Assembly: GCF_023028225.1 (NCBI RefSeq)
Contig: NZ_CP095482.1
Span: forward strand, 2,604,001 to 2,668,000
Length of the DNA: 64,000 bases
Direction of reading: 5' to 3'
From: Halorientalis litorea
Lineage (GTDB): Archaea; Halobacteriota; Halobacteria; Halobacteriales; Haloarculaceae
The notes beneath the pieces were generated by a model. That model ran no database searches. It had not been told where the DNA came from and saw only the letters and a program-made list of their open reading frames with translations. Position 1 is the first letter of the stretch, and each line of letters begins with the position of its first letter. Both the position numbers and the translations under genes were made by a program. This document shows positions 33,569 to 44,731 of the stretch, piece after piece.

Positions 33569-33614
33569 CTCGCGGCCCTCTCCTGTCACGCCTGCTCGGC
33601 CGGCGTCAACCGAA

Positions 33615-33623
33615 GTTTTCAAT
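33615..33623 (+). promoter_or_regulatory. Probable promoter of the biotin transporter operon
   Basis: GTTTTCAAT is centred about 32 nt before the short ORF ATG at 33651. The bioY ATG at 33686 has no comparable box at the right distance. Confidence 0.35.
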
Positions 33624-33650
33624 CGGGTTGACTGTGACGGACAGGTACGT

Positions 33651-33689
33651 ATGTCTCTAGCGATTGGCGATACGGGGTGGCAGCGATGA
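33651..33689 (+). CDS. 12-codon upstream ORF overlapping the bioY start
   Basis: ATG at 33651 opens MSLAIGDTGWQR and ends with TGA at 33687-33689, which overlaps the bioY ATG (33686). Its ATG lies near the expected transcription start, so it may be translated as a leaderless ORF that feeds ribosomes into bioY. It is too short for coding statistics. Confidence 0.35.
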   Translation: MSLAIGDTGWQR

Positions 33690-34267
33690 GTACCGACACC
33701 GAGGCGGTCGAACTGGTGGGCGACGAGACAGTCGAGAACGTCGGGCGCGCGGCTCTGTTCGCCGCACTGATGGGTGCGTTCGCCTACGTCACGTTCCCCA
33801 ATCCGGTCTCGCCGGCACCGATTACGCTCCAAGTACTGGGCGTGTTCCTCGCCGGTATCATGCTCGGTCCGCTGTGGGGCGGGGCGTCGCTCGTCCTCTA
33901 CCTCGCGGCGGGGGCCGTCGGGGCACCGGTGTTCAGCGGCGGTGCGGCGGGACTCGGCCAACTGTTGGGGAGTACGGGCGGCTATCTATGGTCGTACCCG
34001 CTCGCGGCCATCGTCGTCGGTACCATCGTCCACAGCGGGTTCACGCTCGGGGACCCGCGGTCGGTCAGCCTCCCGCGGCTCGTGGGTGCGATGGTCGTCG
34101 GCGTCGTCATCATCTACGCGATGGGCGTCGCCGGGCTGATGCTCGTCCTCGGTCTCGGCCCGGAGGCGGCGTTCTTCGCGGGTGCGGCCGCGTTCATCCC
34201 CGCCGAGGCGTTCAAAATCGCGGCCGCCGTCGCCGTCGTGCGGAGCGACGAGATAATGGCTCGATGA
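33686..34267 (+). CDS. bioY: Biotin ECF transporter substrate-binding subunit BioY
   Basis: A 193-residue S-component with six helices. BioY landmarks are present: AALMGAFAYVTFPNPVSPAPITLQVLGVFLAGIMLGP (first helices), LVLYLAAGAVGAPVFSGGAAGLGQLLGSTGGYLWSYPLAA and PAEAFKIAAAVAV at the end. It binds biotin in the membrane and works with the ATPase and T-subunit encoded next. I use ATG 33686; an in-frame GTG lies 9 nt upstream. It overlaps bioM by ATGA. Confidence 0.92.
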   Translation: MSTDTEAVELVGDETVENVGRAALFAALMGAFAYVTFPNPVSPAPITLQVLGVFLAGIMLGPLWGGASLVLYLAAGAVGAPVFSGGAAGLGQLLGSTGGYLWSYPLAAIVVGTIVHSGFTLGDPRSVSLPRLVGAMVVGVVIIYAMGVAGLMLVLGLGPEAAFFAGAAAFIPAEAFKIAAAVAVVRSDEIMAR

Positions 34268-36804: not shown

Positions 36805-37437
36805 TCACTCGTCCTGCCCGTACGCGTCGAACTTCGCCGCGACGGCCGCGAGTTCCGACTCGGGGAGTTCCCGCGGGTCGCCGATGGTCGCCGCCTGACA
36901 GTAGAGGCGGGCCGTCGTCTCGACGGCGCGGGCGGTTTCGACGGCGGCGGCCGCGTCCTCACCCGTGGCGACGACGCCGTGGTTGGCGACGAGGCAGGCC
37001 GACACGTCGGCCTCGGTCAGGGTCGCGACGACGTTCGCGGCGAGGTCCGCCGTGCCGTAGGTCGCGTAGTCGGCGACCGGAACCCTCCCGCCCGCGTGGG
37101 CCAGCGCGTAGTGGACCGGCGGAACCGGTTCGCCCAGCACCGCGAGCGTGGTGGCCCACGGCGAGTGCGTGTGGGCGACGGCCCCGGCGTCACGCTCCCG
37201 GTAGATGCCCCGGTGCATCGCTGTCTCGCTCGATGGGTCGGCGTCGCCCGCCACTTGCTCGCCGTCGAGGGTCAGAACCGGCACGTCGGCCGCCTCGATA
37301 TCGTCGTATGGAACGCCGGTCGGCGTGACGGCAAACCGGTCGCCCCGGCGGACGCTGAGGTTCCCCGACGTACCGGGCGTGAGCGCGGCGAGGTCTGACA
37401 GATGGGCACAGACGGCCCGTCGCTCAGCGTCGAGCAT
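36805..37437 (-). CDS. Class II aldolase (fuculose-1-phosphate aldolase family)
   Basis: A 210-residue zinc aldolase. The metal His pair is in VAHTHSPWATTLA (about residue 90), a further His is in CLVANHGVVATGED, and an acidic catalytic residue is expected in PSSETAMHRGIY. SGNLSVR is the phosphate loop. Next to mtnA it most likely cleaves methylthioribulose-1-phosphate or 5-deoxyribulose-1-phosphate to DHAP and an aldehyde (DHAP shunt), rather than acting on fuculose. The MtnB dehydratase is the other close relative and cannot be excluded by sequence alone. Confidence 0.82.
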   Translation of the reverse strand: MLDAERRAVCAHLSDLAALTPGTSGNLSVRRGDRFAVTPTGVPYDDIEAADVPVLTLDGEQVAGDADPSSETAMHRGIYRERDAGAVAHTHSPWATTLAVLGEPVPPVHYALAHAGGRVPVADYATYGTADLAANVVATLTEADVSACLVANHGVVATGEDAAAAVETARAVETTARLYCQAATIGDPRELPESELAAVAAKFDAYGQDE

Positions 37438-37480
37438 CGGCGGCCTCCCGGTTCCTCGCAGGTGACTGGGCGTCAGTCAT
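37424..37480 (-). CDS. 18-codon upstream ORF overlapping the aldolase start
   Basis: ATG at 37480 opens MTDAQSPARNREAADARR, with TGA 14 nt inside the aldolase gene. A minus-strand TTCTTTAC TATA-like box (37503-37510) is centred exactly 27 nt upstream of this ATG rather than of the aldolase ATG, suggesting that the mRNA starts at the small ORF. Confidence 0.4.
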   Translation of the reverse strand: MTDAQSPARNREAADARR

Positions 37481-37521
37481 CCCCGGGGGCTACGCGGGCC
37501 GGGGTAAAGAATGGTGGTCGG

Positions 37522-38679: not shown

Positions 38680-39095
38680 GCTTTCTCCTCCCGTGGGACC
38701 GCGAACTTGAACGAGTTGATGGGCCGCTCACCGTCGCTGAACATCTCGCGGAACCGTGCTTCGACTTCGGTGCCGACCTCGATTTCTTCCAAGTCGGTCT
38801 CGGTCAGCAAGCCGAACGCTCGGGCCGGTTCGCCGTCGCCGTCGGCCTGTGGGAGGTCCACGATTGCCACCGGTTGGGGCGTCTCGATGTCGTCCGGCAG
38901 GTACTCTTGGACGACGAACGTCTGAATCTCGCCGCGTTCGGCGAGTTGAACTTCCTCCATCTCGGCGGGCGCGTCGCCACACCGCTTGCAGGTCCGCTTC
39001 TCCTCGGGGAAAGACACCCAGCCACAGGCCCCACACTCGAAGCCGACGAGGTGCTGGTCCTGTCGCTTGCGTCGCTCGTAGCGTGGCCCACTCAT
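38676..39095 (-). CDS. DUF35 OB-fold protein with zinc ribbon
   Basis: A 139-residue protein: an N-terminal rubredoxin-like zinc ribbon (FECGACGWVSFPEEKRTC then KRCG, four Cys) and a C-terminal OB fold with GEIQTFVVQEYLPDD and VAIVDL. In the characterised archaeal complex DUF35 bridges thiolase and HMG-CoA synthase and shares a CoA-binding site. It overlaps both neighbours by ATGA, as expected for a stoichiometric complex. Confidence 0.9.
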   Translation of the reverse strand: MSGPRYERRKRQDQHLVGFECGACGWVSFPEEKRTCKRCGDAPAEMEEVQLAERGEIQTFVVQEYLPDDIETPQPVAIVDLPQADGDGEPARAFGLLTETDLEEIEVGTEVEARFREMFSDGERPINSFKFAVPREEKA

Positions 39096-40087
39096 GGCGT
39101 CTTCACCCCCTCGTACTCGACCGGTTCGCGGTACGCCAGATGCTTCGCGTAGGTGACTTCCTCGCTCGCGTCGAGGTAGGTCTGGACCGAGCGCGCGCCG
39201 CCGTCGCCCACGCCCGCGCCCGTCGAGAGCGTGAGGGCGTCCGCACCGCCCGCCCCGTAGCCGACGACGAGGACCGTCTCGTCGGCGTCAGCCGTCTCCA
39301 GCAGGTGTGCGAGGTCGAGCAACACCGCGGCGGTGCCCGCGTCACCCACGCCGTCGTGCGTCGAGACGTGTTCGACCTCCGGGAAGTCGCCGAGTGCGGC
39401 CCGTGCCGTCCGCGGGTCGGGCGCGCCGACGACGGCGCGGCCGGGCGTCTCCCCGTCGAGTGCCCGCTCGCTGGCCGCGCCGACGGCCGGACCGAAGCCG
39501 TACTTGCCCTCGAACTTCGAGTCGCCGGCGACGGCCGTCTCGCCGTGTTCGCGGTGGCGTTCGACGAACCCGGTCGTCTCCTGCCCTAGCCCTGTGAGGG
39601 TCGCGGCGGGTGCCTCGGCGTCGGGGCGGAGGACGACCGCCCCCGCACCGGCCCCGGCGGTGGCCGCGTCCGCGTCTGAGTCGGCGGGCATCACGTCGGC
39701 GGCGACGACGAGCGCGCTCCCATCCGTCGCGCGGACGAACTCCCGGGCGGCGACGAGGGCGTCGGTGGCCGCCCGTTCGGTTCCCCGGAAGTCGCCGGTG
39801 CGAACGTCGCCGGTCGCGCCGAGGCGGTAGGCGACGTGGGCCGCGATGCCGTGGTCCGCGAACGGGTCCGTGACGCTGGCGGCGAAGACGGCGTCGAGGT
39901 CCTCGCCCGCGACTGCCGCCCGTGCGAGGGCGTTCCCGGCCGCCTCGCTCGCCATCGTGACGTGGTTCTCGTCGCGGGCGGGGACGGCACTCTCGCCGCT
40001 GGCGCGGCCGCCGTGCTGAGCCGCGACTTCACTGCGGTCGACCCGATAGAGCGGGACGTAGCCGCCGTGCCCGTCGACTACGACCAC
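39092..40087 (-). CDS. HMG-CoA-synthase-like protein lacking the catalytic cysteine
   Basis: A 331-residue thiolase-fold protein of the archaeal HMG-CoA synthase group: GGYVPLYRVDRSEVA at the start, ENHVTMASEAAGNALARA, and the FEGKYGFGPAVGAASERAL segment. The expected EFACKAGT nucleophile loop reads GDFRGTERAAT, and there is no Cys anywhere in the protein. It is therefore unlikely to catalyse condensation and may be a structural partner for the thiolase. I choose GTG 40087 because GGAGG lies 8 nt upstream; GTG 40096 is the alternative. Confidence 0.75.
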   Translation of the reverse strand: MVVVDGHGGYVPLYRVDRSEVAAQHGGRASGESAVPARDENHVTMASEAAGNALARAAVAGEDLDAVFAASVTDPFADHGIAAHVAYRLGATGDVRTGDFRGTERAATDALVAAREFVRATDGSALVVAADVMPADSDADAATAGAGAGAVVLRPDAEAPAATLTGLGQETTGFVERHREHGETAVAGDSKFEGKYGFGPAVGAASERALDGETPGRAVVGAPDPRTARAALGDFPEVEHVSTHDGVGDAGTAAVLLDLAHLLETADADETVLVVGYGAGGADALTLSTGAGVGDGGARSVQTYLDASEEVTYAKHLAYREPVEYEGVKTP

Positions 40088-40137
40088 CGCGAACACCTCC
40101 CGCTCGACGCCGTGTCTCGTGCGTGTCGCTCTGACAT
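40078..40137 (-). CDS. 19-codon upstream ORF overlapping the HMGCS-like start
   Basis: ATG at 40137 opens MSERHARDTASSGRCSRWS and stops inside the HMG-CoA-synthase-like gene. A GCTATTAC box near 40166-40173 would place the RNA start at this ATG; a second box (GTTAAT near 40141-40146) would start transcription downstream of it, so translation is uncertain. Confidence 0.25.
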   Translation of the reverse strand: MSERHARDTASSGRCSRWS

Positions 40138-40260
40138 ACGATTAACGGTGTGCGTCGCCGAGGGAGTAATAGCTACCGATGGAAGATGCCCGGCTGAGAG
40201 AGACAACACCTGTAACGACCCGTCGGTGGAATTATGCCAGTCGGGGACGCACGCGAGTCC

Positions 40261-43711: not shown

Positions 43712-44563
43712 TCAGTTTAAAAATGTACTCACTTCGTCGGCGTATCGCTCCGGGCGGTCCTCGACGACCCAGTGGTAGGCGTCGAGTTCGACCACCTCGC
43801 CGCCAACGTCCTCGGCCAGTCGCTCGCCGTACGCCAGCGGTTGCATCACGTCGTCGGCCCCCCACAGACAGAGCAGGTCGGCGTCGATGGCTCCGTAGTC
43901 GATTTCCGTGGTGTGGTTCGTGTTGGTCGCCACGGCGTTGCGACACAGAGACACCTGTCCCGCCTCGCTGTCCCACGGGTGGGCGATGCCCTCGACGAAC
44001 GCCTCGTCGGCCTCGTCGTAGAGTCCCTGCCGGAACGCGCCGTCGAGCGTCGCCACGAACTCCTCGTGGTCCTGTTCCGCCGTCTCCGGCAGGCCGAGGT
44101 CCGAGATGAACTGGACCGGCCACGAGTCGTAACAGACGGCGTTGGACATGACCAGCGAGGAGACGGCGTCGGGTTCGTGGGCCGCGTACCGCACCGCTGC
44201 ACCGCCGCCGATGTCGTGGGCGACCAGCGCGCAGGTGTCGATACCCAACTGGGCCAGCAGGTCCGCGAGCATCTGCTCTTGGGCCCGCACCGACCGGTCG
44301 AACCCGTCGTGCATCGCGGAGTTGCCGTACCCCAGCATGTCCGGGACGACGACGCGGCGACCCGTGGCCGCGGCGACGGCGGGGGCCACGTCCCGCCAGA
44401 GAAACGACCACGTCGGAATCCCGTGCAAGAACACGACCGGCGGGTCGTCCGTCGCGTCGTCACCGTCGTCCGTCCAATAGGCGACGGTCAACTCGTGGCC
44501 GTCCACCGTCACCGTCCGCTCTGATTGCTCGTCGGTCCACTCCCCGTGTGTGTATCTCGTCAT
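43712..44563 (-). CDS. Alpha/beta hydrolase with Asp nucleophile (haloalkane dehalogenase/epoxide hydrolase-like)
   Basis: A 283-residue hydrolase. The oxyanion motif is VVFLHGIPTWSFLWRD (residues about 43-58). The nucleophile elbow reads VAHDIGGGAAVRYA, with Asp where lipases have Ser, as in dehalogenases and epoxide hydrolases. An acid is available in LLCLWGADDVM and the His in AYHWVVEDRPERYADEV. Trp residues that would form a halide site are only partly evident, so the exact substrate is open. Its ATG overlaps the stop of a 28-codon upstream ORF. Confidence 0.83.
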   Translation of the reverse strand: MTRYTHGEWTDEQSERTVTVDGHELTVAYWTDDGDDATDDPPVVFLHGIPTWSFLWRDVAPAVAAATGRRVVVPDMLGYGNSAMHDGFDRSVRAQEQMLADLLAQLGIDTCALVAHDIGGGAAVRYAAHEPDAVSSLVMSNAVCYDSWPVQFISDLGLPETAEQDHEEFVATLDGAFRQGLYDEADEAFVEGIAHPWDSEAGQVSLCRNAVATNTNHTTEIDYGAIDADLLCLWGADDVMQPLAYGERLAEDVGGEVVELDAYHWVVEDRPERYADEVSTFLN

Positions 44564-44646
44564 CGTTCGCGGTCGCTCCCCCCGTTCGTGGTGCCCGCGG
44601 CGTGGCCCCCGACGGCCACCTGTCTGTCCGCTAGCAGGACCGGCAT
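44560..44646 (-). CDS. 28-codon leaderless upstream ORF coupled to the hydrolase
   Basis: ATG 44646 starts MPVLLADRQVAVGG and runs to TGA 44562-44560, which overlaps the hydrolase ATG (ATGA). Third positions are mostly G or C. A TATA box at 44670-44678 is centred 27-28 nt before this ATG, but 110 nt before the hydrolase ATG, so the transcript should begin at the small ORF. It may encode a real microprotein or serve translational coupling. Confidence 0.5.
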   Translation of the reverse strand: MPVLLADRQVAVGGHAAGTTNGGSDRER

Positions 44647-44669: not shown

Positions 44670-44678
44670 TAAAATAAG
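44670..44678 (-). promoter_or_regulatory. Promoter of the hydrolase unit with upstream CATTTGGG motif
   Basis: The minus-strand CTTATTTTA box is preceded by CACCATTTGGG at about 44688-44698. The same motif and box occur before the acyl-CoA ligase gene. Confidence 0.5.
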
Positions 44679-44731
44679 TTCCGGGATGCCCAAATGGTGT
44701 TAACTGTATAGGTGGGTGGTTTGGTAGGGGA

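Follow-up and report, generated by a model that had tools for sequence, protein, structure and literature searches.

Short open reading frames (ORFs) that begin at the predicted 5' end of the mRNA and stop at the start codon of the following gene probably act in haloarchaea as leaderless minicistrons, delivering ribosomes to that gene by termination-reinitiation. We hold this reading with considerable confidence, both for the entire class and for bioY, a hydroxymethylglutaryl-CoA synthase-like (HMGCS-like) gene, an alpha/beta hydrolase gene, secF and truD, at each of which the architecture is conserved and the peptide mostly is not. In the proposed mechanism, transcription would begin on the upstream AUG or only a few nucleotides away from it, as the promoter position suggests, and the ribosome would initiate on this bare 5' AUG, as it does on most haloarchaeal mRNAs. 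It would then translate 3-30 arbitrary codons, terminate where the stop codon overlaps or adjoins the main start codon (usually as RTGA) and reinitiate, with a Shine-Dalgarno (SD)-like motif inside the minicistron holding or positioning it. Since the job of the minicistron would be ribosome delivery, it would keep its frame, the position of its stop and its SD motif, whilst its peptide would be free to change.

Portions of three published studies on Haloferax provide the setting for this proposal. In Haloferax volcanii, 72% of protein-coding transcripts are leaderless and 16 upstream ORFs (uORFs) lie in long leaders (PMC4983044), an SD motif had no role in fresh initiation at a tested Haloferax 5' leader (PMC3986360), and overlapping H. 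volcanii genes are translated via termination-reinitiation, for which an SD motif is reported to work (PMC6728339).

Four layouts in the window

The window, a stretch of 64,000 nucleotides, is part of a 3.2-Mb haloarchaeal genome. All four layouts named in the original prediction, at the aldolase, bioY, HMGCS-like and hydrolase genes, were recovered (Table 1), and the predicted spacing of 27 nt between TATA box and upstream ATG holds for the aldolase and is a few nucleotides longer at bioY and the HMGCS-like gene. Scored with a matrix derived from the source genome, promoters at the upstream ATG and the main start reached 6.2 and 3.7 for bioY, 6.0 and -3.9 for the aldolase, 3.1 and -3.0 for the HMGCS-like gene and 9.8 and -3.1 for the hydrolase. 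Only two of the four sites, the aldolase and the hydrolase, pass the genome-wide filter used below: bioY fails because its main-start score exceeds 3, and the HMGCS-like gene because its upstream-ATG score is below 4. Upstream ATG and main start are 35-83 nt apart at the window sites, which places them outside the class of Haloferax uORF leaders of 150-250 nt. The four layouts exceed chance, and the weakest of them is the aldolase, the headline example of the original prediction.

Table 1. Coordinates of the features at the four window sites (positions within the window)
Feature	Position	Strand	Remarks
bioY operator, inverted repeat GTCAACC-N14-GGTTGAC with TATA-like AGTTTTCAAT between its arms	33605..33632	+	In 157/161 distinct haloarchaeal bioY loci
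bioY upstream ORF, 12 codons (MSLAIGDTGWQR)	33651..33689	+	TGA overlaps bioY ATG 33686 (ATGA); starts 18 nt past the operator
GGTG, SD-like core within the bioY upstream ORF	33676..33679	+	From sequence
bioY, biotin transporter substrate-binding subunit	33686..34267	+	PF02632
Ribulose-1-phosphate aldolase	36805..37437	-	NF053831, RU1PAldHalo (NCBIfam)
Aldolase upstream ORF, 18 codons (MTDAQSPARNREAADARR), out of frame	37424..37480	-	Score 6.0 at ATG; stop 37426-37424, 14 nt inside the gene starting at 37437; not conserved
GGAGG, SD-like motif inside the aldolase upstream ORF	37444..37448	-	6 nt before the aldolase ATG
TATA-like CTTTACC, putative promoter	37503..37509	-	Centre ~27 nt 5' of upstream-ORF ATG 37480
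HMGCS-like protein gene	39092..40096	-	Below NCBIfam cut-offs
HMGCS-like upstream ORF, 19 codons (MSERHARDTASSGRCSRWS)	40078..40137	-	TAG 10 nt inside the gene from GTG 40087
GGAGGTG, SD-like motif before GTG 40087	40094..40100	-	From sequence
TATA-like CTATTAC	40166..40172	-	~31 nt 5' of the upstream-ORF ATG; promoter score 3.1
Alpha/beta hydrolase	43712..44563	-	PF00561
Hydrolase upstream ORF, 28 codons (MPVLLADRQVAVGGHAAGTTNGGSDRER)	44560..44646	-	TGA overlaps hydrolase ATG 44563 (ATGA)
Strong TATA element ACTTATTTTA	44670..44679	-	Conserved in two other genus members

Promoter-linked upstream ATGs in the source genome

To place these sites in context, we used an 864-kb sample of the source genome (40 stretches and the window), in which 833 genes were called with our own simple coding-potential gene finder, which also supplied the gene starts. 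A promoter matrix trained on positions 5' of main starts converged on CGAAA..TTTAW, which matches the known haloarchaeal BRE/TATA, and detected a promoter at leaderless distance in ~64% of the 501 genes with an upstream gap of at least 60 nt. The 201 genes without a main-start promoter carried 97 out-of-frame ATGs in the gap, of which 19 had a promoter at leaderless distance. With a stop window and promoter cut-offs chosen on the source genome itself, 17 of these 19 ATGs opened a frame that stops at 0 to +14 of the main start. The same was true of 14 of 71 upstream ATGs lacking a promoter and of 64 of 252 control trinucleotides that had one (p = 3e-8 for each comparison). The preset window of -30 to +40 gave 18/19 against 32/71, whilst counting per gene gave 16 coupled and two uncoupled cases with a promoter against 12 and 37 without (p = 2.5e-6). 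GTG upstream starts showed no excess over controls genome-wide, although GTG is present in the bioY set described below.

The promoters are also in phase with these ATGs. At leaderless distance, a promoter was found on 17 of 34 coupled-type ATGs, dropping to 0-8 at shifted positions, and on just two of 63 other upstream ATGs; the matrix thereby puts the predicted transcription start at the upstream ATG. Stops at exactly +4, the RTGA overlap, were in excess among promoter-linked ATGs (9/19). Ends of this kind easily arise by chance, because the main start followed by A supplies TGA in one frame, and ATGs without a promoter had them in 9 of 71 cases. Overlaps in the coupled set were 1, 4, 8, 10, 11 or 14 nt long, mostly 4 nt, resembling the same-strand gene pairs of the same sample, 74 of 152 of which overlap by 4 nt.

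An SD match of at least 4 nt precedes 15 of the 16 coupled genes, compared with 61 of 256 leaderless genes (p = 2e-8). The argument from the general lack of SD sites in haloarchaea, on which the original prediction had leaned, is thus reversed, since the main starts of coupled genes are enriched in such motifs. This enrichment agrees with published Haloferax reinitiation data, and the coupled genes share with haloarchaeal termination-reinitiation pairs both the overlapping stop and start codons and an SD motif in the upstream frame. The counts across the genome lend good support to the predicted handover from a leaderless AUG, as does the layout kept at bioY, secF, truD and the HMGCS-like and hydrolase genes, with the exception of its headline example, the aldolase; the function that these data point to is ribosome delivery, rather than translational control in the sense of regulation.

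Two rival explanations bear on these counts. Four look-alikes could have been picked by chance, as ATG and TGA are frequent before starts: out-of-frame upstream ATGs are common (97 in 201 genes), RTGA provides a free stop, and the aldolase alone is without comparative support. However, promoter phase, stop clustering and SD enrichment coincide only in the promoter-linked set, and the layout is kept across species at five genes, so that chance is already disfavoured and, in our assessment, very unlikely. Alternatively, these mRNAs might carry short 5' leaders from which ribosomes locate the main start directly, and it would be incidental that an upstream AUG sits at the end of the mRNA. Leadered Haloferax mRNAs are indeed translated without the need for an SD motif, according to part of PMC3986360, and the aldolase is compatible with such leaders too. 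This account nevertheless leaves unexplained why solely promoter-linked ATGs stop at the main start, and we consider it improbable.

Replication in other haloarchaea

We applied the source-genome matrix to three other haloarchaeal genomes (400 kb each). When pooled, stops fell at 0 to +14 for 9 of 22 promoter-linked ATGs and 19 of 91 without a promoter (p = 0.06), at -10 to +14 for 14/22 and 26/91 (p = 0.003), and at -30 to +40 for 16/22 and 40/91 (p = 0.018); matrices learned per genome gave 0 to +14 counts of 2/8, 5/8 and 2/7. On this weaker replication, the layout exists in other haloarchaea but seems to be denser in the source genome, unless the difference comes from the small samples. None of the 16 candidate genes had a match in the G006 sample (400 kb). 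Counts over related genomes, here and below, are not independent.

Conservation at bioY

The inverted repeat upstream of bioY, which we take to resemble a BirA operator, has the haloarchaeal consensus GTMAACC-N14-GGTTKAC, is highly conserved around the TATA box and anchors an RTG downstream of it. In most haloarchaea it is the bioY start codon itself that lies 13-18 nt past the operator, a place occupied here by the upstream RTG. Among 161 distinct bioY loci (one bacterial locus excluded and identical upstream sequences counted once), the operator-anchored RTG was in frame with bioY in 124, absent in nine and out of frame, opening a mini-ORF, in 24, with no operator call in four. All 24 out-of-frame mini-ORFs, which are 3-22 codons long, end exactly at the bioY RTGA, a coincidence that short leaders with an incidental AUG would leave unexplained. 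Loci of G055 and Halorientalis marina, each with an RTGA-ending mini-ORF and no operator call, stand outside this tally. An SD motif of at least 5 nt precedes the bioY start at 15 of the 24 mini-ORF loci, compared with 7 of 120 leaderless loci (p = 1.6e-9).

A bioY gene tree (FastTree), from which 40 short loci were left out, required at least five changes between the leaderless and mini-ORF states. As the anchored RTG is in frame at most loci, including a group with an extended BioY (below), the operator-anchored start is probably the ancestral leaderless bioY start, with a mini-ORF probably arising when the frame breaks and RTGA coupling is available.

The operator half-sites differ by family, with GTCAAC and GTAAAC types. 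At three loci of genus g4 (L125, L126 and L131), BioY is read in frame from the operator-anchored ATG and thereby gains 13 N-terminal residues, whose beginning resembles that of the peptide encoded by the mini-ORF in some f3 genomes (MTEP...). A haloarchaeal bioY, together with its operator and a mini-ORF, is also present on a contig labelled as a Bacteroidetes metagenome-assembled genome (L413), which is probably a binning error.

Conservation at the HMGCS-like gene, the hydrolase, secF and truD

Homology to orthologues indicates that the HMGCS-like gene probably starts at GTG 40087; counted from the longest-ORF start, GTG 40096, the mini-ORF stop would lie 19 nt inside. Eight of 20 loci were inspected, and the layout is kept in 5/5 orthologues at least 62% identical (G000, G006, G060, G059 and G073), with promoter scores of 3.1-9.2 at the upstream ATG and a GAGG-containing motif before the main start. 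The distance of the ATG varies (-41, -38, -26, -32 and -26) and the frame is held at every distance; the mini-ORF stops at one alignment position through TAG, TGA, TAG, TAA and TAG, respectively. Same-position stops via three different codons are again left unexplained by an incidental AUG on a short leader. Of the 3020 Val-(Val/Ile) codon pairs in the source genome, no more than 123 (4.1%) contain such a stop, and GTA makes up 3.5% of valine codons; given the rarity of these pairs, the gene's own codons appear to have been selected to terminate the mini-ORF.

For the hydrolase, seven of 30 loci were inspected. Three genus members (G000, G002 and G006) keep the layout, with a common TATA element 23-24 nt from the ATG, promoter scores of 8.0-10.5 and unrelated peptides, and their mini-ORFs end in ATGA, in GTGA or 2 nt before the ATG. 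In G001, G003, G004 and G005, the hydrolase instead follows closely behind an upstream gene, presumably an acyl-CoA dehydrogenase. The 28-codon ORF peptide had no family match in NCBIfam. At locus L073, the mini-ORF ends in REHL and a stop, like the C-terminus of the hydrolase-preceding gene in other genus members, and may be what is left of an operon partner that has been lost.

At secF (20 of 30 loci inspected), a leaderless ATG is the SecF start in 15 of the 20 loci. Three genus members (L269-L271) carry a frame-breaking insertion of 56 or 62 nt just after this ancestral leaderless ATG, and the resulting mini-ORFs keep the old SecF N-terminus (MVEFEVP...) and end at a new ATGA. A different coupled mini-ORF is present in G055 and G057. 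At truD (13 of 30 loci inspected), the mini-ORF ends in TGATG in three genus members.

The peptides themselves were considered as attenuators, in which the nascent peptide or its codons would stall the ribosome and regulate the gene. Short leaderless ORFs do precede biosynthetic or transport genes here, and cysteine-rich leaderless ORFs of such a kind have been proposed in mycobacteria, in the cited part of PMC4633059. However, orthologue peptides differ even within one genus at bioY, the hydrolase, the HMGCS-like gene and truD, with parts shared only by close relatives, and inspection revealed neither a conserved peptide nor a common residue or codon bias. We give peptide sensing hardly any credence.

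Relation to known systems and significance

Leaderless minicistrons are best read as a putative archaeal counterpart of the leaderless coupled small ORFs of mycobacteria, whose RTGA excess and unconserved peptides are described in portions of Shell et al. 2015 (PMC4633059). Both have a short ORF, an excess of RTGA overlaps and an architecture that is kept whilst the peptide is not, and the haloarchaeal ORFs are predicted to begin with a leaderless RTG as well. The mycobacterial ORFs are bacterial and backed by transcript and ribosome data, whereas ours belong to Archaea and are known from sequence alone. The haloarchaeal set also differs from what those portions describe in its SD-like motif inside the mini-ORF, in a group reported to do without SD for fresh initiation, in the operator-anchored starts of bioY and in the frame-breaking insertion of secF.

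Within haloarchaea, the overlapping gene pairs of Haloferax volcanii (part of Huber et al. 2019, PMC6728339) likewise combine ATGA or TGATG overlaps with an SD motif in the upstream frame; those pairs are annotated genes, whereas the first cistron here is an unannotated ORF of 3-30 codons with no conserved product. The H. volcanii uORFs with mapped starts (15-31 codons; Babski et al. 2016, PMC4983044) are also short ORFs before normal genes, but the portions on long-leader uORFs cover leaders of 150-250 nt only and do not discuss coupling, whilst our mini-ORFs would span the distance from transcript end to main start in leaders of ~16-100 nt. Bicistronic design (PMC12548453) and 5'-terminal upstream AUGs of Escherichia coli (PMC4965119) similarly use a short ORF to bring ribosomes to the next start or to influence it, although the cited parts concern engineered constructs or SD-leadered bacterial mRNAs. 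Our literature search, whose reach stopped short of two relevant Haloferax ribosome-profiling papers, found no archaeal description of leaderless minicistrons.

Whether leaderless minicistrons amount to a general third haloarchaeal way to start genes, by 5' AUG loading, arbitrary codons and SD-assisted reinitiation, is a proposition for and against which we see equal grounds. If true, it would account for the persistence of SD motifs where 5' leaders do not use them, giving these motifs a concrete role in organisms reported to carry out ordinary initiation without using them. It would also provide an evolutionary safety net through which a leaderless gene survives an N-terminal frame-breaking insertion, as apparently at secF. 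Of the haloarchaeal genes that have a promoter of their own, a few percent (16/499 in the sample) would then rely on an unannotated mini-gene, and such dependence would call for a fresh look at how start sites are annotated, how expression constructs are designed and how N-termini evolve in haloarchaea.

Aldolase and MC1

The aldolase was rejected as a type case: among the eight of 30 homologous loci inspected, the mini-ORF was found in one (G000), and promoter signals lie at the main start itself in three close relatives, which are among the closest (scores of 7.3 in G002, 4.2 in G144 and 3.1 in G114). That the aldolase upstream ORF acts as a leaderless minicistron is, in our view, slightly less likely than not.

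The chromosomal-protein gene MC1 was likewise rejected as a further conserved case, since in several relatives the upstream ATG is lost or the ORF reads on for 100 nt. Seventeen of 30 loci were inspected (L329-L345). Nine of the 17 carry a three-codon ORF (MER) that terminates 4-5 nt short of the start, the ATG being absent or the ORF open in the remainder, and in four of the 17 the upstream ORF extends 100 nt into the gene. The leader of MC1 is short and conserved and contains an SD-like GGAG..GGTGA, and its retention in relatives that have lost the upstream ATG is a point in favour of short leaders on which the main start is found directly.
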